From: a virus
Virus record (IMG/VR): IMGVR_UViG_3300005613_000270
Coordinates: 1-31,559 of that record
Strand: one strand, 5' to 3'
Length of the DNA stretch: 31,559 nt
Position numbers and translations under genes: made by a program. Below, in pieces: positions 7,401-23,096 of the stretch. The number at the start of each line of letters is the position of its first letter. Position 1 is the first letter of the stretch. The notes below the pieces were generated by a model, which saw nothing but the letters and a program-made list of their open reading frames with translations, made no database searches and was not told the DNA's origin.

Positions 7401-8744
7401 TTATCCCTTCAAAGCAACGTGCTGGTTAGCAGCGCGAGTGATCAAGCAGATCTCAGAGAGGTAGTGCATTTCTGCGATGTCCTGAGACAACTCGTTCTGT
7501 CCGAACACACCTCCGCCACGGATCCAGTGAACCAATTCACGGCTCTGACCGTTAGCTTCTTTGTAGTTCAACTCCAACGATGGGGCCTTAGTACCAGTAC
7601 GTGGATCAGTGACCTGAGTCAACGGAACCATGGCTCCCATGTACTTCGTAGAAGCGCCCAACAGGGTGGGATCATTCAACAACTTCCAGTCGTGCTTGTG
7701 GAAGGTGTAACCACCTCTAGTAAAGCTCTTGAATCCGAGCTGGACAGCCATGTCTGGTGAGTTCTGGAACGCACCGAACTGACCTGGGAGACCAGCGGTG
7801 ACAGCAGAAGAGATACCAGAAGCCAACATGTCGTCGATGGCCAAGTCCTGCGTTCTGTTCACGTACATAGCGTACTCAGCGGGAGCGCCTTGCTTGTCGA
7901 GCTCGATGATGATGTTGTCAAACTCAGCGAATGAATCGAGAGGGTTAGCGCTACCGTTCGTAACCTCAATACCTCTCTTCTTGATTGCCTGGAAGTAACC
8001 CTCAGAACCAGCCACACCGCCTGGCTCAGATGCGATCGTGTCGCCAGAATCTGAAATCTCACCGAAGAGCATCATCATCTCTCTGCGATCCAAGAAGCGC
8101 TGACGAGCCTCTTGCTCACCATGGATGTACCATCTGTAGTCACCACCCACGTTCACCCAGCCAATGTTCGTTGCCTGAGATCCGTTCACCTGGAACAAAT
8201 CCTTGACAATCATGAAGCTGTTCGTGTGCTTGGTTGGAACGGTCTCCATGAACTTGCTAGGAGCTTCAGCGCCCTGATTGTACATGTTGCCCAAGATGAT
8301 CAGCTCGTCACCAACCGCCCAAAGCGTGTTCGAAGTCGACCCGTCGAGTCTCTTGAATTTATCGACGCTAGAGCCAGACAAGTTAGTGGCAATAAAAACC
8401 TCGCCAGTGCGTGCGTTCATGACGACGTCCTGGAGCTGAAGCTCCGCAATTGCGGTGATGCCAGTCACTTCACCACTCGTTCCAGCTGGAGTTCCAGCAA
8501 CCGTAACCTTAGCGTGACGACGCTGCTCCTCCCAGTACTGGACGAAGTCGTTAGTACCAGCCGACTTGGTTGCGCCAGTCAACTGCAAAAATCCAGTGAT
8601 ACCCTGATCACCATAGGTCTTGATCAACAGATCTCTGTTGTCTTCCTTGTTAGCCGTCAAGAGAGCGTCCACCGTGGTGTACTTTCTTGGGGCCGTTGTG
8701 AACGTTGCGTATGAATCGCTACCGTTCTTAGCTACTGTAGCCAT
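7401..8744 (-). CDS. Major capsid protein (crAss-like / HK97-fold candidate)
   Basis: A 447-aa protein, the right size for an HK97-fold capsid subunit of a crAss-like or related podovirus. The N-terminus has TTVDALLTANKEDNRDLLIKTY and then FLQLTGATKSAGTNDFVQYWEE. The middle has SFMIVKDLFQVNGSQATNIGWV, then EQEARQRFLDRREMMMLFGE, a helix pattern like the spine helix region. The end has GGVFGQNELSQDIAEMHYLSEI. The gene is preceded by an acidic, Gln-rich scaffold candidate and followed by small decoration candidates, the usual arrangement. There is no protease domain in the frame. The start is an ATG (MATVAKNG). The call combines size, order and residue pattern. Confidence 0.75.
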   Translation of the reverse strand: MATVAKNGSDSYATFTTAPRKYTTVDALLTANKEDNRDLLIKTYGDQGITGFLQLTGATKSAGTNDFVQYWEEQRRHAKVTVAGTPAGTSGEVTGITAIAELQLQDVVMNARTGEVFIATNLSGSSVDKFKRLDGSTSNTLWAVGDELIILGNMYNQGAEAPSKFMETVPTKHTNSFMIVKDLFQVNGSQATNIGWVNVGGDYRWYIHGEQEARQRFLDRREMMMLFGEISDSGDTIASEPGGVAGSEGYFQAIKKRGIEVTNGSANPLDSFAEFDNIIIELDKQGAPAEYAMYVNRTQDLAIDDMLASGISSAVTAGLPGQFGAFQNSPDMAVQLGFKSFTRGGYTFHKHDWKLLNDPTLLGASTKYMGAMVPLTQVTDPRTGTKAPSLELNYKEANGQSRELVHWIRGGGVFGQNELSQDIAEMHYLSEICLITRAANQHVALKG

Positions 8745-12341: not shown

Positions 12342-12372
12342 CAAATATATAAAAACTTAGAGTGCCGTCCAA
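12342..12372 (-). promoter_or_regulatory. Bacteroidota-type promoter (-33 TTG, -7 TATATTTG)
   Basis: TATATTTG (12,342-12,349) with TTG at 12,370-12,372, a 20-nt spacer. This is the best -33/-7 pair found on the minus strand. It would give a leader of about 22 nt before the ATG at 12,314, and lies at the 3' end of the tail fibre gene. Confidence 0.6.
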
Positions 12373-15300
12373 TCTCTTGATGGGGAGAAGAAGACTTCGT
12401 TTGTAGATGCGTTGACGACGTACCCGCATACTCTTACGTACTCCCCAGCTGTAGACGGTGCTGTGGTGGTAAGCTCACCAGCCGTAGTAGACAGGTAGAG
12501 TACCGTTCCTGCTGCAGCCCCAGAGAATCCAGTGTTAGAAGAAAGCTTGATAACTCCTTCGATAAGCATCTCTGTTGCAGACGCTGCGTCTGTAGCGACA
12601 GCGATCATGCCGATAGACGTGCTACCCGCGTTTGCGTCCCCCTCTGCCCACGAACCTGCATTAGCTACGTATACCTTGCCTGCCGTCACAGTTCCAGAAG
12701 CGAACTGAGTTACAAGTCTAGAGCCAGCCCCGTACTCACCAGTAGCTGGAGTGGTCAAAGCCCTACCGTTTATCTCTACAGCATCGGCCCTGAGGTTTCC
12801 TCCAGAGACATTGAGGTCCCCGTTAATTGTAATCTCACCTAGGTTGAAGTCACCGTAGATAAGTGGGGTGGTGGTGTTACTGTTTGCGATATACAGCTTG
12901 TTGTGTGTTGTTTCGTTGTATCCCGCTTGATAACCAATAAAAACGTTTCCTGTACCAGTAGACGAATACCCAGCCTCTCTTCCAACGGCCACATTTTGAC
13001 CACCACTAATATTATTATAAAGTGCCTCACGACCAACGGCTACGTTGCTGTATCCCCCCTCATTATTAAGCATCGCGTTCCACCCGATAGCAACATTTGA
13101 TCCTCCGCTGTCAGTATTAAGACCAGCCTGATGGCCACCAGCTGTGTTGCCTCCGCCATTAGTCGAGCTTTGGAGCGCCTGATAACCAACCGCTGTTGTG
13201 CCACCGAATGTCGAAACTCCAGAGGAGCCCTGGCCTGCGGCATATCCAACAAGAACGTTGCTACTACCAGTGGCATACTGACCAGCAAAGCTGCCAACAC
13301 TCACTCCCCCAAACCCTGAACTCTGTCCAGCTCTATATCCTAATGCCGCAGCATAGTTGCCAGTAGCATCATAAAGAGATCTATACCCGACACCTGTGGT
13401 AAATTCAGTCCCAGTAGTGTTGCCAATAGCATCAACGCCTATAGCAGTGTTGTATGACTCAGTGGTAAGCAACAACCCACTATTGTACCCAAGCGATGTA
13501 TTCCAACCTCCAGTATTTACGGCTTTTAAAGATTGATAGCCAAGAGCAGTATTATTACCCCCAGTAGTCAGAGCAGTATTGCCAGAGCTAATCATGACGT
13601 TGTTACTACCGTCATTGATGTTTGCCAACCCGACTACATCGAGCTTAGATGTCGGTGAAGCAGTCCCGATACCTACGTTGCCAGATGAGTCGATGCGCAT
13701 GCGCTCTGTAGAGCCACCAGCAGCAAACAAAAGATTATAACCTGAATTAGCCCTAAACCCAATGTCATAGATGCCTCCTCCAGAAACAGTGGCGGAGCCA
13801 TTTCCAATAAGTCCCTGATAAGTTCCGTCGCTGTGATAAAAGCCTATCGCTGGATTAGTTTTTAAGTCCAGCGTGTGAACTGGTGAAGTAGTCCCGATAC
13901 CGACGTTGCCAGATGAATTGATACGCATAACCTGACTACCAGCAAACTTCCAATCGTAATAAGTTCCATACGAATTCATTTGGTCTGATTCGTAGTAATT
14001 CGTGGCAGAACTGTCTTGTATCTTCAAAAGACCATTGTTGATAAACGCTGATCCCTCAACATGTAGTTTGGATGCGGGACTAGTTGTTCCGATACCGACG
14101 TTGCCGCTTTCCTTTACAGTCAAAAGAGGATTAGCAGTACTACCCTGCGCTACAGTAAATGCTCTATCTGTTTCGTTGTTATTTACATCAACAACGACAG
14201 TAATACCCCCGTTGGACTCTATTGTTTCGTTTGCGCCTATGCGAATACCACCATTAACTTCAAGTTCTTTGGCTGGTGAAGTAGTTCCGATGCCCACTCT
14301 GCCTGAAGAGCCGTCAATGCGCATTACCTCTACATCTGACCCAGTCCCAGCTTCAGCCTTGAAGATGATGTCTTCGTTTGCTGCGGTATTACGGATTATG
14401 AAGTCTCCAGTGTAATTTGCTATCTCTGCATAGGTTCCACTGTGGAACATAGACAACCCAGACCCACCCATAGAAATCCTATCTCCTGTATCAACTCTAA
14501 TGCTCCCTGATACATGAAGCTTCTCGCTCGGTGAAGTAGTCCCGATACCGACGTTGTTTGAACTGCTTATAAAAATAGATCTGGTGCCAGTAGATTTAGC
14601 TCCATTAACAAACTCCAAACCACTAGTGCCATAGCTGCCGACAAACCATTTTCCAGTCGTTCCATGTTTCAGCTCTAATCCATAGTAGTTAGCTGCCCCC
14701 TCTGAATTAGCCGTAAAGTAGGCCCCTGCATTTGTTGTTTTTGACTCTATATAAGCGTCGTTGGCGCCCGACCTCTCCAGAAGTAGTTTGTCTCCAACAA
14801 CATGGAGCGGAGTGGAAGGTGTAGTAGTCCCGATGCCGACCCTACCTGAAGAGTCAATGCGCATCTTCTCTCCCCCAATGGTGTAAACTGAAACCGTGCT
14901 TGTAGCGCCAGCAGAGCCCAATACAACGCTTCCGCTACCAGACAGAATCGTAGCTCCACCAATTCTATATGCAGTAGCGCGAATGTTTCCATTTACATCT
15001 AGCGGATATGCTGGGGTAGTAGTTCCGATACCAACTCTGCTGTTAGCGATGTCGATATAAGCTGTGTCTGTAGCCGTAGCCACCCCGTCTGCATTACCAG
15101 CCCAGATGTTACCAGTAGCTATGTTAGGGACGTCGTTAGCCCTCCCAGCACCCATAATAATCCCAGAGATTTTGTTCCCCGACGTGTTTACCTTGATGAT
15201 GATACCGAGGTTCTGGATAGCGTTAGCCCCCGTAGGCTTCGTCGTAGTCCAACCCCCAGACTCTCCGAGATACACTGTCTGACCCTCTGTGTAGATAGAG

Positions 15301-15857
15301 GCGTCAGGTACGTCTACGTTGTTGATGAACCCGATGGCAATCCCCAATCCCTCCTGATCGTCAGCGAGGTCTTCATTAAGCACGAAGTGTGCTGGGTAGT
15401 TCGTAGCTGCGTCAGCAGCAATAACCTCTGCAAGGTTCCCGACAGATCCAGTGACGTGTACAGGAGTACCCTTAGTGAGAGGCCCACCACTTACGTTCTT
15501 TACATCCTCTGCAATCGTCTTCGGGTAGGCAAACGTAACGGTTGCTGCACCGTTAGTAGTAAGGACCTGACCGTCAGCCCCGTCAGCAGCAGGGAGCGTA
15601 TACGCGCTCCACTTCGTGTCGTAGTCTGTGGCGCTGTTCTTCTGTATGAACTGATTCTCTGTACCGCCAGAAGCAAATCCAGGACCAGCAGGTCCGTCTG
15701 CACCAGCAGGGCCAGTAGCACCAGTATCACCCTTCGGACCCTTCTCAGTGACCGATACAGATGAGCTGGCTGGTGATGTTATTTCAACCGAGGTTGAGGA
15801 TTGTACAGTTATATCTATAGACTCCCCGCCCTGCGTGGTTACTGTGATGTCACTCAT
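12357..15857 (-). CDS. Trimeric tail fibre / receptor-binding protein
   Basis: A 1166-aa protein built in blocks. Residues 1-37 are Ser/Thr-rich beta. Residues 39-60 are collagen-like, about seven G-x-y triplets (GPKGDTGATGPAGADGPAGPG). Residues 115-270 form a domain starting with NVSGGPLTKGTPVHV and including GQTVYLGESGGW. Residues 270-750 hold at least seven GIGTT-[ST]-P repeats of the trimeric fibre type. Residues 755-985 hold YadA-head-like repeats (N-[TV]-A-[IVL]-G-x-x-[AS]-[LG]). The C-terminal 100 residues form a beta tip ending FFSPSRDWTAL. It almost certainly forms a trimer and recognises the host surface. The adaptor-like gene lies 11 nt upstream. No intramolecular chaperone peptidase is apparent. 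Confidence 0.85.
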   Translation of the reverse strand: MSDITVTTQGGESIDITVQSSTSVEITSPASSSVSVTEKGPKGDTGATGPAGADGPAGPGFASGGTENQFIQKNSATDYDTKWSAYTLPAADGADGQVLTTNGAATVTFAYPKTIAEDVKNVSGGPLTKGTPVHVTGSVGNLAEVIAADAATNYPAHFVLNEDLADDQEGLGIAIGFINNVDVPDASIYTEGQTVYLGESGGWTTTKPTGANAIQNLGIIIKVNTSGNKISGIIMGAGRANDVPNIATGNIWAGNADGVATATDTAYIDIANSRVGIGTTTPAYPLDVNGNIRATAYRIGGATILSGSGSVVLGSAGATSTVSVYTIGGEKMRIDSSGRVGIGTTTPSTPLHVVGDKLLLERSGANDAYIESKTTNAGAYFTANSEGAANYYGLELKHGTTGKWFVGSYGTSGLEFVNGAKSTGTRSIFISSSNNVGIGTTSPSEKLHVSGSIRVDTGDRISMGGSGLSMFHSGTYAEIANYTGDFIIRNTAANEDIIFKAEAGTGSDVEVMRIDGSSGRVGIGTTSPAKELEVNGGIRIGANETIESNGGITVVVDVNNNETDRAFTVAQGSTANPLLTVKESGNVGIGTTSPASKLHVEGSAFINNGLLKIQDSSATNYYESDQMNSYGTYYDWKFAGSQVMRINSSGNVGIGTTSPVHTLDLKTNPAIGFYHSDGTYQGLIGNGSATVSGGGIYDIGFRANSGYNLLFAAGGSTERMRIDSSGNVGIGTASPTSKLDVVGLANINDGSNNVMISSGNTALTTGGNNTALGYQSLKAVNTGGWNTSLGYNSGLLLTTESYNTAIGVDAIGNTTGTEFTTGVGYRSLYDATGNYAAALGYRAGQSSGFGGVSVGSFAGQYATGSSNVLVGYAAGQGSSGVSTFGGTTAVGYQALQSSTNGGGNTAGGHQAGLNTDSGGSNVAIGWNAMLNNEGGYSNVAVGREALYNNISGGQNVAVGREAGYSSTGTGNVFIGYQAGYNETTHNKLYIANSNTTTPLIYGDFNLGEITINGDLNVSGGNLRADAVEINGRALTTPATGEYGAGSRLVTQFASGTVTAGKVYVANAGSWAEGDANAGSTSIGMIAVATDAASATEMLIEGVIKLSSNTGFSGAAAGTVLYLSTTAGELTTTAPSTAGEYVRVCGYVVNASTNEVFFSPSRDWTAL
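12900..13560 (-). repeat. YadA-head-like coding repeats in tail fibre
   Basis: About ten copies of a 22-26-residue unit containing N-x-A-x-G and A-G-Y/A-L-Q elements (for example NTALGYQSL, NTAIGVDAI, NVAIGWNAM, NVAVGREAL, NVFIGYQAG). The pattern fits trimeric beta-roll repeats of YadA-like adhesin heads. Confidence 0.7.
13655..15045 (-). repeat. GIGT coding repeats in tail fibre
   Basis: Seven copies of a unit that encodes NVGIGTTSP or RVGIGTTTP followed by a K-L-H-V-like strand. At DNA level the plus strand repeats GTAGTCCCGATACCGAC or close variants near 13,665, 13,890, 14,090, 14,285, 14,540, 14,830 and 15,020. Spacing is irregular (about 190-290 nt), because each core is followed by a different insert. 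Confidence 0.8.
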
Positions 15858-16325: not shown

Positions 16326-18731
16326 TCAAATCATTTCTTGAGGGCTGAGCCCCTTTCTCTTGTCAATAAGTTTAGCCTGCTCATCGGCCTGCTTTCTAAC
16401 CCTCTCGTCCTTCTTCCCCTCCTTGAACACCTCGATCTTCTCCTTAAACTCCTGATCGTCGGTCTTGAACCCGAGGGTTGCTTGAGCTCTTATCAGCTCG
16501 ATCTCTCTTCTATACTCATGCCTCACCTGCTCAAGCTGGATCTCGAGCTGGGTCTTAAGCTGCATCTTCTGCTGCTCCATCTCGAACTCCATCTGCATCT
16601 CCTGCTGCTTAGCCTGGGAGGCTGACTCAGCTGCTTGCTGGGCCTGTTGAGCTTGCATCTGCGAGTTCTGCTGTGCCTGCTCCTGCATCTCCTTCATGCG
16701 GCGCTTCCTCCTGACAACAAGAAGACGCTCCGCCTGATTTATATCCTTAAGCTGTCTTATGGCGATGGCGTCCTCGAGATCTATCTCTCTCTGAGCGATA
16801 GAGGCCTGAATGTTCTGCTCCAAATACACCTTCTCCTGATCCTCCATATCCTTCTGCACGGTGACCCCGAAGTTGAACATGGGGAGGTCGCTGAACCCAG
16901 ACAGAGCCTTCATGTTCTCCTTTCCGATGGCGTTCATGTAGATCGTCATCAGCACAGAGTCTGGTGGGATGATCTGGAGGCATCTCACAATATCCTGACA
17001 TACCTGCTTAAACAGGATGGTGGAGGCATTCGTGATGTCGTACGTTGCGTTGTTTCCAGCCGCAATGGCCTGCTGCTGAACACCGACAAGGGTGTCACCC
17101 TTGGGCGTTGAGGCATCCATCATCTCGTTGATACCCGTAGTATCACGGATCATGTTGAGATAGTGGTTGTAGAGCGTTATGAGCTCGTTGATGTTGCGGA
17201 TGTTGTTCGGGATCTGCTGGATCGGTGGACCCTGATACCCTCCCTCAGCGTTCTTGCTTCTGTAGTAGAAGACACCCGTCTGCTCGTAGATGTCGTGCAA
17301 TTCAAGCGGCTGCAACTCCCCACCCTTGCCGAGCTGAACGTTCTCCAGCCCCTCGATGTCGATGATGAGTCCGTCTGGCTTTGCCTTGGCGACAGCCTGC
17401 TGGATCTTAAGGTGCGTGACCTGGAGCATGTCAGCAAATCCGATACAGCTCTCGACCATGCTCTTAGGCATCATGTCCCTGAGGTTGGTTGCGACAGCAG
17501 AGTAAGACATGCGGGCTCTGGTGACGTCGTGCATATTCCTTGGGACGTTGGTCTTGATACCGTATCCGATCAAGTAATCGCAGTCCATCACGAGCATACC
17601 CCCATACACGGAGGTGATCTCTACCTTGTGAGGCTTGCGCTCGTACACCCCCTTGTTAGACTTCTCCTTGTACTCAAACCCCTCGTAGTAGAAGCCTGTG
17701 TTACCGTATCTGTTCTCCTTCTCCTCGAAGTACATACAGTCAACAGAAAGGAACTCGAAGTCTAGGACATCAACCATGTACTCCTCGTAAGCGTACACGT
17801 TTCTCCCCATGGAGTCGTCGAAGTACTTGTTCTCGAGTCTGGAGAAGTCTCCGTTGTGGTTCTTTGACTTCTTAGCAATCTCCTTGTACTGCTCATCGGT
17901 GAGTTCGTCACCAGCGATACGCTTAAGCTCCTGGATGGAGATGGTCCTGATGTGACCCGCGTATACAATGTCCGAGAAGTTTGGGTCGTCGGTTGAACTG
18001 TGGATGAACCTGACTGGGTCAACGTACTCCGTGACAATACCGTAGTTAGGATCGTTGTTACGCTTGACCACAGCCATGCCGCACGAAACCAAGTCCTGAA
18101 CGCATCGTCTGAATATGTTATCGTTGAAGCTGTTCCACTCCAGCGTCAGGTTGGTAGCTATCTGCCCAGCGATCTCAGCATCTGTCTTGATGTTGGTGTC
18201 GAGCAGGATCTCAGCCTCCTCAGTGGTATCTGGGAGGTTATCTGGATCCTCATCCAGAACAAGCCCACCAGTCATCTCCTTGAGCTGCGTGAGCTCAGCC
18301 TTCATCTTGACCTGATTTATGATCCGCTGCTTCTGCTTGTTCTTCGCAGAGGTAGAGATGGGATCAACAGCCTCAAGGTTCGGGTATGGGTTTCTTGACA
18401 GGATCTTGTTCACTACGATCCTAGAGAACTTCGGAAGGATTGGAACTGGTGTGTAATCGAGGTTGACAAGCGATCCGTCGCCGTTGTTTGGATCAAGAGA
18501 CGTCAGGATCTGCTTATAGATCGTCGTATCCTGTACGCCGTTGGCGTAATCTCTGTTCTTCTCAAACGTACGTGATCTCTTCTTATACAGAGACTTGTCG
18601 TCATGGATTTTACCCCACTGATTCTCAATAGCCTTCGCGTACTTCATCCCATACTCCTTCGACATCTTAGTCTCCTTAGATGCTAGCGGGTCTGGGAAGT
18701 TCTTCGAATACTTCTTATTGGTGTTATACAT
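16326..18731 (-). CDS. Portal protein (crAss-like, large)
   Basis: An 801-aa protein, the large size typical of crAss-like portals. The N-terminus has FEKNRDYANGVQDTTIYKQI, then LDYTPVPILPKFSRIVVNKIL, a pattern of this group. Middle parts include NDPNYGIVTEYVDPVRFIHS, the wing/stem region, and PIQQIPNNIRNINELITLYNHYLNMIRDTTGINEMMDASTP, which fits the portal core. Residues 650-760 form a long Gln/Glu/Lys-rich coiled coil, likely the crown or barrel. It forms the packaging channel and lies directly after the large terminase gene. I keep the ATG at 18,731; a TATATTTG box lies 29 nt upstream. Confidence 0.85.
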   Translation of the reverse strand: MYNTNKKYSKNFPDPLASKETKMSKEYGMKYAKAIENQWGKIHDDKSLYKKRSRTFEKNRDYANGVQDTTIYKQILTSLDPNNGDGSLVNLDYTPVPILPKFSRIVVNKILSRNPYPNLEAVDPISTSAKNKQKQRIINQVKMKAELTQLKEMTGGLVLDEDPDNLPDTTEEAEILLDTNIKTDAEIAGQIATNLTLEWNSFNDNIFRRCVQDLVSCGMAVVKRNNDPNYGIVTEYVDPVRFIHSSTDDPNFSDIVYAGHIRTISIQELKRIAGDELTDEQYKEIAKKSKNHNGDFSRLENKYFDDSMGRNVYAYEEYMVDVLDFEFLSVDCMYFEEKENRYGNTGFYYEGFEYKEKSNKGVYERKPHKVEITSVYGGMLVMDCDYLIGYGIKTNVPRNMHDVTRARMSYSAVATNLRDMMPKSMVESCIGFADMLQVTHLKIQQAVAKAKPDGLIIDIEGLENVQLGKGGELQPLELHDIYEQTGVFYYRSKNAEGGYQGPPIQQIPNNIRNINELITLYNHYLNMIRDTTGINEMMDASTPKGDTLVGVQQQAIAAGNNATYDITNASTILFKQVCQDIVRCLQIIPPDSVLMTIYMNAIGKENMKALSGFSDLPMFNFGVTVQKDMEDQEKVYLEQNIQASIAQREIDLEDAIAIRQLKDINQAERLLVVRRKRRMKEMQEQAQQNSQMQAQQAQQAAESASQAKQQEMQMEFEMEQQKMQLKTQLEIQLEQVRHEYRREIELIRAQATLGFKTDDQEFKEKIEVFKEGKKDERVRKQADEQAKLIDKRKGLSPQEMI

Positions 18732-18777: not shown

Positions 18778-20895
18778 CTATCTATGCTTGAACCTTCGCA
18801 GAAATACCTTATCAGAAAAGTCGGACTGAACGAACTTAGGCTTCACCTTCTGAGCTGCAAGCAGCGCCAACCCAGAGCTAATAGTTAAGTCAAACTTCGT
18901 TCTGTTGTCGATCTTGTATCCTATCCAGTCCTCGAGAGTCTTGTTGAAATACATCTTCCCGTATTCCCCAGACTCTCTGTTCACACCCACGTGGTCATGG
19001 ATGTATGCCTCGATGGCGTGAGCATGGGCTTGAATCACATCCTGAGAGTTCGATGGTATGCCCTTAGTTTTCGTCTTAGTGAATGATGCTGACGTCAGGT
19101 GGGCTGGCCTGTCCATGAGATAACCGTCATAACCCCTGCTCTCGAAATATCTAGCGATCCCGTACTTGTTGTTCTCTATGAGGATTGGATAGCCGTAGAA
19201 CACGGCTGCCTTTAGCACGTCCTCGTAGAATATCTTAGCGAGGGGCGGGCGGGACGCATACTCAAGAACAAACATGTTCGATGGATGCTCCATGTGAAAC
19301 TTGTTGTACAGGTGTAATGCCCCCTTAGAGCCTCTTCCATCAAGAGTGGCATCAAGGTCGTAAGAGTCAACCCCGCCTACCCCCAGCTCTGCATTTGGTG
19401 CTATACGTTTGCTCTTGATCTCCGACTTAACGTTCCTGAGCTCAGGCGGTGGCATCCATGCAACCCTGAACCGACCCTTTGGGTCTGGGTCGAATACCAC
19501 CTCAGTGTCCTGATCCCCGTTCTTCCACACGAAGTTGCCTCTAACGACTGGGTTCGGGTATAGGTCGTCATTGTATTGAATTTGCTCGTAGATCTGACCT
19601 ATGTTGAACAGGCTCCCCTCGATACTATCTCGGAAGGCCTCGTCTGTGGAGAACGGGAACTGCCTTATGACCTCGTTAAGCTCCGACGGGTCCGCCTTGA
19701 GGCTCTCCCTTTCGTTCTTAAGAAATGTCTTAGCTCCTTGAACGACGCTATCGCCATCAAGCCCATCCACAGGGCTATCAGGGTCATCGGTGATTGGGCG
19801 TCCATGTCTGTCAAAAAATCCTTCAAGTGATTCATATGCTGGGATAAATAGTCTATACAGTCCTGATCTGGTTCGCCCGTTTGCGTTCCTCTCCTCTGGG
19901 TTGCTATCCATCCACAGATCCTTATACTCACTCCCCCCCTTGTCCATGGGGTTCACAGTGCTACCCACCAGAGCCTTTCCCACAATCTTCCTACCCACAA
20001 TAAGACACGTACGCTGAATCCTCCAAGCGTCACGAATATCCGTAGGCTTCTCCCACTTGCCAGCCTCATCAAGATAGAGTATGTGAAGCTTCTCACCGTC
20101 ATAAGCGTTGTTGGTCGTGTTCTTCCAGTTGACGACAGTGTTCAGGGCATCACCCTTGTTTGACGTCTTGTTCTTCTTCGTAATCCTCTTGCTAGGCTCC
20201 CTGAAGGCTAACTCCATGCGCGGGTTAGTCGTACCGTCCTGAATGGGTTTGAAGAAGAAAGGGTATGACTTGAACATCTGGACCACCTTCTTCATGAAGA
20301 TGTTCTCCTGCGCGTCCTTACCCGTCTTGGACTGGATTCCGAGTAGTTTATCTTTAACCTGCGTAGCTTCATCGACAAGGACTGAAGAGCAGATATTAGT
20401 GTATCCAGAACGACGACACTTGGTGTAGAGCTGACCAATGCAGCGAGGATCCGCCTCACAGGCCGCCATGTGTAAAAATATCTCACGTTGGAACTCAAGA
20501 TAGTAAGGATACCCTACATCTAGCTTGGTCCACTGAAGCATCATGTAGTGTCTCCCCGTAACGTATGTAGGGACACCATCATTGTAAAACCAAAAACCCT
20601 CACGCCGACGGCGAAACTCCTCCTCGATATACGGAGAAAACTTCTGCCGAAACTCCCTTGGCATCTCCCCCCACTCATCCATAGAGCGAATCCTCGACAG
20701 CTCCTCAGGCATAGGTCTCCTCTCCCACAGCTGCATGTCGTTTGGACGTCCATATCCCTGAATCTCCTTCTCGGGAGGCTGAGCGGGAAGTGCAACGAGT
20801 AGCCCACCGATCTGAACAACTTCACCCTTCGTACCGTTGGGGCAAATTGCGACAACAGGCGTGTCATAATCCTCTATGTTCAGGAGGGTGGACAT
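18778..20895 (-). CDS. terL: Terminase large subunit (crAss-like)
   Basis: A 705-aa packaging ATPase-nuclease. The ATPase half has a deviant Walker A (residues 155-167, QLYTKCRRSGYTN), a clear Walker B (residues 272-277, ILYLDE), and a coupling motif VGSTVN (310-315). The nuclease half has GGVDSYDLDATLDG (Asp near 510), ILIENNKYG (Glu near 574) and NRTKFDL (Asp near 669), consistent with the RNase H-like metal-binding triad. It is longer than most TerL proteins, as in crAss-like phages, with a 100-residue N-terminal extension. It cuts and pumps the genome through the portal encoded next. Its ATG overlaps the stop of the small Cys-rich gene (ATGA). Confidence 0.9.
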   Translation of the reverse strand: MSTLLNIEDYDTPVVAICPNGTKGEVVQIGGLLVALPAQPPEKEIQGYGRPNDMQLWERRPMPEELSRIRSMDEWGEMPREFRQKFSPYIEEEFRRRREGFWFYNDGVPTYVTGRHYMMLQWTKLDVGYPYYLEFQREIFLHMAACEADPRCIGQLYTKCRRSGYTNICSSVLVDEATQVKDKLLGIQSKTGKDAQENIFMKKVVQMFKSYPFFFKPIQDGTTNPRMELAFREPSKRITKKNKTSNKGDALNTVVNWKNTTNNAYDGEKLHILYLDEAGKWEKPTDIRDAWRIQRTCLIVGRKIVGKALVGSTVNPMDKGGSEYKDLWMDSNPEERNANGRTRSGLYRLFIPAYESLEGFFDRHGRPITDDPDSPVDGLDGDSVVQGAKTFLKNERESLKADPSELNEVIRQFPFSTDEAFRDSIEGSLFNIGQIYEQIQYNDDLYPNPVVRGNFVWKNGDQDTEVVFDPDPKGRFRVAWMPPPELRNVKSEIKSKRIAPNAELGVGGVDSYDLDATLDGRGSKGALHLYNKFHMEHPSNMFVLEYASRPPLAKIFYEDVLKAAVFYGYPILIENNKYGIARYFESRGYDGYLMDRPAHLTSASFTKTKTKGIPSNSQDVIQAHAHAIEAYIHDHVGVNRESGEYGKMYFNKTLEDWIGYKIDNRTKFDLTISSGLALLAAQKVKPKFVQSDFSDKVFLRRFKHR

Positions 20896-21080
20896 CAGTA
20901 TACCTGACCATATCTGTTGCTCCTGAAGCTTGGGGCTCCAGACTTAGGGTTGTGTAAGTTCATGTACTCACCGCACCTCTCGCACTTAATGTCGTGCCTA
21001 ACCTTATCGTCTATAAACTTGATGCTCACGTTCGATGCGTCGATGACGTCATCTGAGCAGCTGCACTTGTACTTAGCCAT
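20895..21080 (-). CDS. Small zinc-ribbon-like protein upstream of terL
   Basis: A 61-aa protein (MAKYKCSCSDDVID...). CxC near residue 6 and CERCGEYMN near 35 provide four cysteines for a small zinc ribbon. The end reads SGAPSFRSNRYGQVY, which I recall from small proteins beside phage terminases. A start at 21,101 would add seven residues but that stretch overlaps the promoter-like box, so 21,080 is preferred. Possible roles are DNA recognition in packaging or simply a partner of the terminase; both are inference. Coupled to terL by ATGA. Confidence 0.6.
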   Translation of the reverse strand: MAKYKCSCSDDVIDASNVSIKFIDDKVRHDIKCERCGEYMNLHNPKSGAPSFRSNRYGQVY

Positions 21081-21084
21081 AAGA

Positions 21085-21092
21085 CATATGTA
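21085..21092 (-). promoter_or_regulatory. TAnnTTTG-like box (TACATATG)
   Basis: One mismatch (TATG instead of TTTG) but placed exactly 4 nt before the ATG at 21,080 and just after the tRNA gene. Weak on its own; listed because of the shared spacing. Confidence 0.3.
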
Positions 21093-21103
21093 TTTTGACA
21101 TCG

Positions 21104-21175
21104 TACCCCCACCTGGAATCGAACCAAGATTACCGCTTTAGAAGAGCGGAGTTTTATCCGTTAAACTATAGGGGC
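21104..21175 (-). tRNA. tRNA-Arg (anticodon UCU)
   Basis: A 72-nt cloverleaf on the minus strand. Acceptor 7 bp (GCCCCTA with TGGGGGT; one G-T and one T-G pair), 4-bp D stem (GTTT/AAAC), 5-bp anticodon stem (CCGCT/AGCGG) with loop CTTCTAA giving UCU, and a 5-bp T stem (CTTGG/CCAGG) with TTCGATT loop. CCA is not encoded. It reads AGA (and by wobble AGG) arginine codons. It lies between two protein genes in the same orientation and is probably processed from their message. Confidence 0.9.
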
Positions 21176-21182
21176 AATAGCC

Positions 21183-21401
21183 TCAGACGCTGTTTCGTTT
21201 CTTGGGTCTGTTCTTCGCCCTGTTGATGGCCGCCGAAACAAAACCCCTGATCCTGCTACCTATGTGCTGAGCGTCCTTGCCATCACCGTTACCATAAGTA
21301 CCCTTATCCCTGTTGTACCTGTTGAGCTCAGCCCTATACTTCTTAGCGGCTCCGCTCTTACCGTACTTTCTGTACTCCTCCTTATAGTTTCTTGTGGACA
21401 T
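21183..21401 (-). CDS. Small basic phage protein (GTYGNGDGKDAxH motif)
   Basis: A 72-aa protein with YRAELNRYNRDKGTYGNGDG and KDAQHIGSRIRGF, followed by a basic tail ending RAKNRPKKRNSV. The NRDKGTYGNGDGKDA-x-H pattern is one I associate with small proteins near the packaging genes of phages. The conserved His and Asp resemble one half of an HNH-like site but no full nuclease is present. Function unknown. It sits upstream of the tRNA-Arg gene and begins 4 nt after a perfect TATATTTG box. Confidence 0.6.
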   Translation of the reverse strand: MSTRNYKEEYRKYGKSGAAKKYRAELNRYNRDKGTYGNGDGKDAQHIGSRIRGFVSAAINRAKNRPKKRNSV

Positions 21402-21405
21402 GAGG

Positions 21406-21413
21406 CAAATATA
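21406..21413 (-). promoter_or_regulatory. TAnnTTTG promoter-like box (TATATTTG)
   Basis: Perfect match, 4 nt before the ATG at 21,401 (TATATTTGCCTCATG). The box lies directly after the preceding short gene's stop. No -33 TTG. Leaderless arrangement predicted. Confidence 0.5.
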
Positions 21414-21416
21414 CGA

Positions 21417-21548
21417 TCACCTGCCTTGAGATCGATACTTCTTCTTGTAGTTTTTGGACGTCTTAATGTTTGACGTGCGTGTCTTGGCGTGAACACCCTT
21501 ACGTCTCACGCGCTTCTTGCTGTAGGTTGACTCAATTACCTTGGCCAT
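21417..21548 (-). CDS. Short basic protein (MAKVIESTYSKKRVRRKG family)
   Basis: A 43-aa, extremely basic protein (MAKVIESTYSKKRVRRKG, then HAKTRTSNIKTSKNY and KKKYRSQGR). I recall near-identical short proteins in other Bacteroidota phages. The 13 residues from KTRTSN to KNYKK match no domain I know. It could bind RNA or DNA. It starts 16 nt after the tRNA-like element, in the same orientation. Confidence 0.65.
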   Translation of the reverse strand: MAKVIESTYSKKRVRRKGVHAKTRTSNIKTSKNYKKKYRSQGR

Positions 21549-21564
21549 GATGTTATTTAATTTG

Positions 21565-21641
21565 TCCGCAAGGTGGGACTTGAACCCACATGTAACCAGT
21601 TACCCTTTCTACAAGGTATAAGCTTGAGGGGATACTCGCGG
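21565..21641 (-). tRNA. tRNA-like element (acceptor and T arms only)
   Basis: A 77-nt minus-strand element adjoining the HNH gene's stop. The acceptor stem pairs CCGCGAG with CTTGCGG over 7 bp (one G-T), with A as discriminator. The T arm is excellent (GTGGG/CCCAC, loop TTCAAGT). The 45 nt between them do not fold into normal D and anticodon arms: there is no G18-G19-type D loop, and no 5-bp stem with a 7-nt loop and U33. Two imperfect readings exist: TCAAG-CTTATAC-CTTGT, which would give UAU (Ile), and a TACCT/GGGTA stem with an 8-nt loop. It may be a decayed or unusual tRNA, or a tRNA-derived attachment site. Cloverleaf identity is not settled. Confidence 0.4.
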
Positions 21642-21986
21642 CTATGCATTTCTTCTTTCGTGTGTTCTCTTCCTGTGACAGTTTGAACATCTCACCTCGC
21701 ACTTTCTGATCTCCTGCTTGATGGTGTCGATGCTGTACGACTGATTCACCATGTCGGATACGTTTGCGATCTTATCTCCGACAACGTGATCGAAATCCAG
21801 AACGATCGGATCTGACTCACCGCAGTCCACGCAGCTGCACATGTCCTTCACCCTGAAGATGAACTCCTTGTTCCACTTGCGTTGAGACCTGTTTCGCTTC
21901 AAGGATCTCTTCTTGTAAACATCCTTGTGCTTTTGGTAGTGAGCCGCAGAAGCCCGTCTCTGATCCTCTGGATTCTTGTATGGCAT
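21642..21986 (-). CDS. HNH endonuclease
   Basis: A 114-aa protein (MPYKNPEDQRRA...) started at the ATG at 21,986; a GTG one codon earlier is possible. The first 45 residues are very basic. The nuclease core has CVDCGESDP, then VLDFDHV (the DH of the HNH motif) and CEVRCSNCHRKRTHERR, so two Cys-x-x-Cys pairs bind structural zinc and His residues coordinate the catalytic metal. HNH enzymes beside terminase genes may support packaging or be homing elements. It ends exactly where the tRNA-like element starts and lies between the small-terminase candidate and terL, so a packaging role is possible. Confidence 0.85.
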   Translation of the reverse strand: MPYKNPEDQRRASAAHYQKHKDVYKKRSLKRNRSQRKWNKEFIFRVKDMCSCVDCGESDPIVLDFDHVVGDKIANVSDMVNQSYSIDTIKQEIRKCEVRCSNCHRKRTHERRNA

Positions 21987-21990
21987 CACA

Positions 21991-22281
21991 TCACCTTGAG
22001 AAGCGCTCTGCGAACCCTCCAGAGTAATCCTTCTCCTGCTCTATCGACCCACTGTCCCTGAGATCCCGAACCATCTGCTCCAGTCGCTGCCTCTCTATGA
22101 TGAGCTCCTTGCAGTCAACAGCGGTCTGCTTGATTGACTGAAGCTCAGCCTTACGAGCAGCACCACCAGCCTCTGGATCGACAGGCTTTTTGACCTCCTC
22201 GATCATGTTGTTGATGGCTATCTCCATGCTACGCATGAGGTTCTCAGAGGCGTCAATCGTTGTAAACTTCTTCCTCGACAT
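21991..22281 (-). CDS. Helical protein, terminase small subunit candidate
   Basis: A 96-aa, almost entirely helical protein: NLMRSMEIAINNMIEEV, then AELQSIKQTAVDCKELIIERQRLEQMVRDL, ending in GGFAERFSR. The pattern of a long coiled coil plus a FAERFSR end is one I associate with genes just upstream of the terminase in Bacteroidota phages. Small terminase subunits are typically such helical oligomers that recognise viral DNA. It overlaps the GroES-like gene by 29 nt. No helix-turn-helix is obvious. Function is inferred from size, helicity and location. Confidence 0.55.
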   Translation of the reverse strand: MSRKKFTTIDASENLMRSMEIAINNMIEEVKKPVDPEAGGAARKAELQSIKQTAVDCKELIIERQRLEQMVRDLRDSGSIEQEKDYSGGFAERFSR

Positions 22282-22855
22282 ATAGCAGGTCTTCGGCTCT
22301 GGTTCTGTAGTACTCCTTACCGTCTATCTTGATGCGGTAGTCTCTGTTCTTCGCAAACCCAACGACGTCACCAGCGAAGATCCCCATGTCATCCGTGTCC
22401 TCATTCCCGTACACGAGGCGACCCTTCGTTGGGAGCTTCTCCTCGAGCTTCACCATCTCGATGAGGTCCGACGGGAACTCCTCCTCGACCTCCACAGACT
22501 CCAACAAAGTCCATCCTCCCAAAGTCTTTATCTCTCCAGTCTTCTGGCTCTTGAAGGCGATGGCCTGTGAGTTGATGGCCTCTGGGTCGTACTTCACGAT
22601 GTAGTGATCATCTTCACCAGTCAGTGGCTGACCCCCCTGCATCACAACGAGATGGTGGAAGTAAAGCGTATCCCCCTCAGACACACCAGTGTCGTACTTG
22701 AAAGGGGCCGCTACGACAGGTCCTTCCGTGATCCTGTACTCAAACTCCCCTCCCTCAAACCTGGTGTCTATGTAAAGCTCAAGACCACCATCGGTCTTGA
22801 CGGTGTCGTTGATCAGCTTGTCTAGCCGAACAACGAAGAAGTTGAATGTCCTCAT
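22253..22855 (-). CDS. GroES-like co-chaperonin with two tandem domains
   Basis: A 200-aa protein that looks like two GroES folds in tandem. The second (about residues 140-197) is clear: PTKGRLVYGNED, then GDVVGFAKNRDYRIKIDGKEYYRTRAEDLLYVEE, matching the classical G-D-x-V-x-[FY]-x-K-x-x-x-x-x-I-K-I-D-G-[KE]-E-Y-x-x-x-R-x-x-D-[IL]-L. The first (about 4-120) is looser: GVSEGDTLYFHHLVV, DHYIVKYDPEAI and a LGGWTLLE strand. The region between 122 and 140 is acidic. A phage co-chaperonin such as T4 gp31 helps the host GroEL fold the capsid protein. No GroEL gene is in the window. Its ATG lies 4 nt after the upstream stop. Confidence 0.7.
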   Translation of the reverse strand: MRTFNFFVVRLDKLINDTVKTDGGLELYIDTRFEGGEFEYRITEGPVVAAPFKYDTGVSEGDTLYFHHLVVMQGGQPLTGEDDHYIVKYDPEAINSQAIAFKSQKTGEIKTLGGWTLLESVEVEEEFPSDLIEMVKLEEKLPTKGRLVYGNEDTDDMGIFAGDVVGFAKNRDYRIKIDGKEYYRTRAEDLLYVEEEVYND

Positions 22856-22859
22856 TGAA

Positions 22860-23096
22860 TTAAAAGTTAAGGTCGAATTCGATCATGCATGGCATGTCGT
22901 CTATAGACTTCCAAAGAACCTGACCGTCCTCGCGTCTAATGTACACAAGATATCTCTTCATCTTGTGCCTGTGAAGGTGTTCGTCGTCAAGAACGATGGC
23001 GGATACGTTGCCATCACCAACCTTCATGCCTATGTAATAGGCCATCCCGTCCTTCGGGTTTTGCCCGATGACGATCTTCCTGATAAGTCCTTCCAT
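22860..23096 (-). CDS. Small phage protein of unknown function
   Basis: A 78-aa protein. Patterns are LIRKIVIGQNPKDGMAYYIG, then SAIVLDDEHLHRH and KRYLVYIRREDGQVLWKSID, ending MIEFDLNF. I associate this beta-rich sequence with Bacteroidota phages, where it often neighbours GroES-like genes. The strictly kept E-H-L-H looks like a metal site but no enzyme is recognised. It sits 4 nt upstream of the co-chaperonin gene and 1 nt after the previous stop, in one coupled unit. Confidence 0.6.
   Translation of the reverse strand: MEGLIRKIVIGQNPKDGMAYYIGMKVGDGNVSAIVLDDEHLHRHKMKRYLVYIRREDGQVLWKSIDDMPCMIEFDLNF

Follow-up and report, generated by a model that had tools for sequence, protein, structure and literature searches.

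Tandem co-chaperonins have been treated as peculiar to chloroplasts and apicoplasts, where they raise the question of how an even number of domains is accommodated on a seven-fold chaperonin (PMC5780408; PMC3542282). The same question is raised by a 200-aa open reading frame in a viral DNA record of 31,559 nucleotides (IMG/VR IMGVR_UViG_3300005613_000270, positions 1 to 31,559; hereafter, the window), which a reading of the sequence alone had described as a two-domain GroES-like co-chaperonin in the packaging module. Is this protein built from two GroES-like domains, and what would such a double subunit do beside the head genes of a phage?

The gene and its relatives

The open reading frame is present where the sequence-only reading placed it, on the minus strand (Table 1), and it is a real gene. 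Its homologues span 89% down to 22% identity, and both halves are under strong purifying selection, with dN of ∼0.07–0.17 against a dS of at least 1.3 where this could be estimated and saturation elsewhere; synonymous sites are near saturation. Scanning IMG/VR with the window protein returned 196 relatives in viral contigs; when a broader alignment served as query, the number was at least 463. The protein matches PHROG 13932, “co-chaperonin GroES”, from end to end (E = 2.6e-43, profile positions 1–199 of 200). The family is already known, under a plain “cpn10/GroES” annotation in which the two domains are unmentioned. Pfam matches to LuxE on the window protein (E = 0.12) and to MazE in 2 of 33 members were discarded as noise.

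Table 1. Features of the window discussed in the text, with coordinates in the window and the observation attached to each.
Feature	Coordinates	Strand	Observation
Tandem GroES-like co-chaperonin	22253..22855	minus	200 aa; ATG at 22855, stop at 22253
N-terminal GroES-like domain, residues 1–104	22544..22855	minus	profile shuffles and model of the half alone
Putative N-domain mobile loop, residues 21–31, TDGGLELYIDT	22763..22795	minus	aligns with GroES KSAGGIVLTGS
C-terminal GroES-like domain, residues 105–200	22256..22543	minus	Cpn10 match and fold search
Putative C-domain mobile loop, residues 128–138, PSDLIEMVKLE	22442..22474	minus	low model confidence at residues 121–140
p78, conserved small protein, immediately upstream of GroES	22860..23096	minus	78 aa
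p96, conserved small protein	21991..22281	minus	96 aa; 29-base overlap with the end of the GroES gene
Terminase large subunit (terL)	18778..20895	minus	phrog_6681, E = 4.5e-200
Portal protein	16326..18731	minus	phrog_6547, E = 5.4e-193
Virion structural protein, suggested client	7401..8744	minus	phrog_13704, E = 1.8e-110

Two GroES-like domains in one chain

The C-terminal half is, by sequence and predicted fold, a GroES-type barrel. The two motifs from which it had been recognized, IKIDGKEY and that of the final strand, are both there, and the close likeness of the final strand is limited to this half. Pfam Cpn10 (PF00166) matches the window protein at residues 138–191 (E = 6.5e-4) with 20.1 bits against a cut-off of 21.1; the cut-off is exceeded in 12 of 17 related contigs, and all 33 aligned homologues carry Cpn10 at E ≤ 0.01. 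The C-terminal half also matches the single-domain GroES family PHROG 3188, reaches a profile score of 57.2 against an alignment of single-domain GroES, and in fold comparison with VIA gives Z values of 7–9, up to 9.2, to many GroES chains over 66–89 residues.

A second, looser GroES copy had been proposed for the N-terminal half, and profile shuffles, the PHROG matches of relatives and a fold search all place it above chance. Pfam Cpn10 gives no match in this half of the window protein. Compared with single-domain GroES, the profile of the N-terminal half scored 35.6, and column shuffles gave a mean of 11.9 and a maximum of 23.4, with 0 of 200 reaching the observed score. The target of this comparison was an alignment of ten single-domain GroES, among them those of Thermus and M. 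leprae and what we take to be the GroES sequence of E. coli. The single-domain GroES PHROG is matched directly by the N-terminal halves of two relatives, L111 (residues 14–76, E = 3.4e-5) and Flavobacterium phage elemo (residues 14–64, E = 3e-4).

Modelled alone, the N-terminal half has a pLDDT of 65, with residues 23–37 below 50. A fold other than a GroES-like barrel, which the sequence-only reading had named as the result that would overturn it, did not emerge. Co-chaperonins occupy the first seven places among its structural matches, the best being M. tuberculosis Cpn10 (VIA Z = 6.1, 72 residues), and GroES-like dehydrogenases lie behind at Z = 4.4; T4 gp31 gives Z = 5.2. These matches are moderate (Z ≤ 6.1, rmsd 3.0–6.3, Foldseek E = 0.05), and the fold is thus supported rather than proven. 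Together, these comparisons support, with moderate strength, a second GroES-like domain in the N-terminal half. Direct comparison of the two halves gave no significant match, so we claim two GroES domains and not a recent internal duplication.

An AlphaFold2 model of the whole chain (33 homologues) has a mean pLDDT of 78.7 and a pTM of 0.77, with low confidence at residues 31–40, 71–80 and 121–140. Its best match in the Protein Data Bank is chain R of 7ekq, a chain of 194 aa that covers model residues 1–195 (Foldseek E = 1.6e-4; VIA Z = 9.5, 170 residues, 18% identity). This entry is the Chlamydomonas ClpP complex, in which chain R is a co-chaperonin chain. Since that complex carries CPN11, CPN20 and CPN23 (PMC8889267) and the chain is 194 aa long, we infer that chain R is itself a tandem co-chaperonin. 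By sequence and model, the 200-aa phage chain carries two GroES-like domains arranged head to tail.

Putative mobile loops and the roof region

A search for the mobile-loop sequence that docks on GroEL had been suggested as a check, and it found a GroES-like motif in the N-terminal half (Table 1). The pattern G-x-[EQ]-L in this loop is kept in 33 of 33 homologues, where x is L, I, F, Q or T. The candidate loop of the C-terminal domain has the consensus S-D-[LIV]-I-E-[VIM] among the homologues. From sequence and model, the GroES-like mobile-loop motif is clear in the N-terminal domain and weaker in the C-terminal one. In the three residues presumed to dock, the central position is mostly taken by Glu (LEL, IEV), unlike the hydrophobic residue of GroES (I-V-L in E. 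coli).

The stretch from the post-loop Gly to the GD turn comprises 16 residues in the N-terminal domain and 17 in the C-terminal domain of all 33 homologues, compared to 24 in GroES of E. coli and Thermus. As judged from sequence and model, the roof-loop region is 7–8 residues shorter in both domains than in these two GroES. In more distant relatives, whose sequences were judged by eye, a recognisable loop motif occurs in the C-terminal domain only (phi38:1) or in the N-terminal domain only (elemo, Panino and ctfjg026). With the motif lost in one domain of some relatives, function could have drifted.

Gene neighbourhood

The placement in the packaging module, beside the head genes, holds across relatives. 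The window's lineage keeps the order p78 – GroES – p96 – terL – portal, which recurs on a contig from the bin of an Ekhidna MAG, and terL lies downstream on the same strand in 87 of the 88 loci with enough downstream sequence. The tandem gene precedes terL, with at most one small gene between them, in Cellulophaga phages phi18:3 and phi38:1, Flavobacterium phage elemo, Maribacter phage Panino and Manatee Spring virus ctfjg026. Between GroES and terL, p96 is found in 81 of 88 loci; PHROG and other family searches gave it no convincing family match, and a small terminase is a guess. Upstream, p78 precedes GroES in most loci of the window's lineage; Panino, ctfjg026 and the Ekhidna MAG contig have counterparts of 30–48% identity in the corresponding position. 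The suggested client is encoded further along the same strand, and Cellulophaga phage Calle_1 has a homologue of it that bears the annotation “structural protein /major capsid protein”.

Two other features of the region were recorded. The interval between p96 and terL (20895–21989) is a variable slot, seen also in relatives L006, L055, L081 and others, which holds small genes, one of them HNH-endonuclease-like (Pfam HNH, a weak match at E = 0.07), whose presence depends on the relative; the distance from GroES to terL ranges from ∼0.4 to 3.5 kb. At 12357–15857, on the minus strand, lies a tail-fibre-like protein of 1166 aa with many S-S-G-N-V-G-I-G-T-T-S-P repeats, parts of which match several tail fibre PHROGs.

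Distribution and companion chaperonins

The phages that carry the tandem gene are a marine family infecting Bacteroidota. By tblastn, the virion structural protein of the window is found in 85 phage records (68 Flavobacterium, 15 Cellulophaga, 1 Maribacter and 1 Caudoviricetes), most of them near-identical isolates that amount to about five effectively independent lineages in addition to the window's. Tandem GroES at ≥80% coverage is likewise found in 85 records with the same count in each group, a match between counts by group rather than between full accession lists. The tblastn matches of elemo are weak (E of about 1), and one of them was confirmed through PHROG 13932. TerL homologues occur in 121 records, crAss-like phages among them, and no tandem GroES was found in the crAss-like phages with a TerL homologue. 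Given the equal counts and the wider spread of TerL, the tandem GroES tracks the capsid type and not the terminase.

A scan of bacterial genomes for tandem GroES returned two loci, both in MAGs. At least one of them, L111 (JABSPG010000006.1, Ekhidna sp. MAG), has the phage order tandem GroES – p96 – terL – portal and is thus taken as a phage contig or prophage instead of a cellular gene; its bin hints at an Ekhidna-like host. Matches of the window protein to T-even phages by tblastn (residues 68–147, E = 2–7) were weak, covered 40%, lay over a small hypothetical gene and dmd, and were rejected as chance. The product at L113:8296-8859 (MW202828.1, UOF82516.1), annotated as hypothetical, is a tandem co-chaperonin (PHROG 13932, E = 3.8e-21).

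Apart from the tandem gene, five lineages with complete or near-complete genomes (phi18:3, phi38:1, elemo, Panino and ctfjg026) each have a gene for a single-domain GroES, and all of these except phi18:3 encode GroEL. The single-domain gene adjoins groEL in elemo and ctfjg026. In Panino it lies downstream of the phage groEL with one small ORF between (L088:129-395, CDS0109; annotated hypothetical, Pfam Cpn10 E = 7e-9). A relative of phi38:1 on a 72.8 kb contig (L208) has both the single and the tandem GroES, with no GroEL detected. These observations can be set beside earlier reports of cpn10 as a core gene of the Pervagoviridae (PMC8776804), of GroEL in group 2 environmental genomes (PMC5332604) and of GroEL/GroES in Panino (PMC11590407). 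On contigs of 41–64 kb from the window's lineage, neither GroEL nor a single GroES was found beside the tandem gene, an absence that is provisional as the contigs are unclosed. The lack of an own GroEL on these contigs fits the use of host GroEL.

Proposed function

We consider it likely, from sequence, model and analogy, that in the window's lineage the protein acts as a Cpn20-like lid working with host GroEL on virion proteins. Two joined GroES-type barrels would sit side by side in the lid ring, each contacting GroEL through its mobile loop, with GroEL in this lineage supplied by the host. The roof of the lid would be partly open, like that of T4 gp31, and the lid could then close over phage virion proteins and allow them to fold. 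The most likely client would be the major capsid protein, because of the gene linkage and the analogy to gp31.

How would such a lid fit seven places? The sequence-only reading had expected an altered ring geometry. Plastid Cpn20 together with single Cpn10 subunits forms normal seven-domain rings, and rings of six or eight domains also work with a seven-fold chaperonin (PMC5780408); Cpn20 works with GroEL either alone or mixed with Cpn10 (PMC5780408; PMC3542282). By analogy, a normal seven-domain ring, reached through mixing with single subunits, is a simpler alternative to altered geometry. Three tandem subunits and one single-domain GroES could complete the ring. The isolate lineages would supply the single subunit themselves, whereas the window's lineage would take it from the host. 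Such a mixed ring is favoured by the finding that each complete lineage encodes a single GroES.

A lid made of tandem subunits alone is possible, though we hold it well short of probable. It would consist of four chains with eight barrels, one of them unbound, or of three chains that leave one GroEL site empty. The window-lineage contigs of 41–64 kb, with no single GroES, are in keeping with it, as are the Cpn20 homo-oligomers of plastids and apicoplasts, which are functional with seven-fold chaperonins (PMC5780408; PMC3542282). However, a single GroES is kept alongside the tandem one in all five lineages known from isolates or complete genomes, and likewise on the 72.8 kb contig, and host GroES would presumably be available in any case.

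It is unlikely that the protein is a GroES-derived assembly or packaging factor that no longer acts with GroEL, such as a ring factor associated with the scaffold or the terminase. Such a role would account for a gene tied to the terL–portal block and not to groEL genes, for the loop motifs that several relatives have degenerate in one of the two domains, and for retention of the tandem gene by phages having their own GroEL and single GroES. Yet, in the window's lineage, each domain has a GroES-like loop motif where one is expected, with spacing that does not vary among the 33 homologues, and a position beside the genes of its client is equally expected of a dedicated co-chaperonin. Very improbable is a chain with a single GroES domain, to which a beta domain of unrelated origin is joined as the N-terminal half: the restriction of Pfam Cpn10 to the C-terminal half of the window protein, the missing match between halves and the modest confidence of the N-half model point that way, but they are opposed by a profile score three times the shuffled mean that no shuffle reached, by the N-terminal halves of two relatives that match the single-GroES PHROG, by best structural rows that are all co-chaperonins ahead of GroES-like dehydrogenases, and by the full-length match to a co-chaperonin chain of 194 aa.

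The Cpn20-like lid thus remains the preferred reading, and its fullest version is put forward tentatively, as more doubtful than not. In this version the lid would have evolved independently of plastids, would combine three doubles and one single to cover seven places, and would be dedicated to one capsid type. The window's lineage would borrow both single GroES and GroEL from its host, making the machine a phage–host hybrid.

Comparison with known systems

Among the closest known proteins are phi18:3 gp096 and phi38:1 gp089 (PHROG 13932), which share homology over the full length of the window protein and the same place before terL. Their identity to it is 22–28%, they are annotated simply as cpn10 or GroES, and their genomes encode a single GroES in addition. 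Single-domain phage GroES (PHROG 3188) is matched by the C-terminal half and by the N-terminal halves of relatives, but has one domain and is sited elsewhere in the genome. In the open-licence literature, we found no description of the tandem architecture in phages, of its pairing with a single GroES, or of its tie to capsid type. In these phages, the plain “GroES” annotation seems to hide a second conserved co-chaperonin linked to capsid type. Represented in hundreds of viral contigs from the sea and in cultured phages of Cellulophaga and Flavobacterium, the family offers a small system in which to ask about ring fit and clients.

Outside phages, the closest likeness is to Cpn20/Cpn21 of plastids and apicoplasts (Arabidopsis, Chlamydomonas, Plasmodium), in which about 200 aa likewise comprise a pair of GroES-like domains joined head to tail. 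Cpn20 accompanies Cpn10 in chloroplasts (PMC5780408), as the tandem protein accompanies a single GroES in the isolate phages. The two differ in sequence, at about 18% identity, and in setting, with the phage gene lying beside terL and portal. In addition, apicomplexan Cpn20 keeps its roof loops (PMC3542282), whereas the roof region of the phage protein is short in both domains. With its roof region shortened, the phage protein is Cpn20-like in layout and is not classed as a Cpn20, and there is no sign that the fusion has a common origin.

For the roof, the better parallel is T4 gp31, which is likewise phage-encoded and has a GroES fold with no roof loop (PMC6318259); it matches the C-terminal half of the window protein at Z = 6.8. 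While gp31 forms heptamers of single-domain chains, each chain of the tandem protein has two domains. Without roof loops, gp31 makes a wider opening that is thought to aid folding of the T4 capsid protein (PMC6318259).
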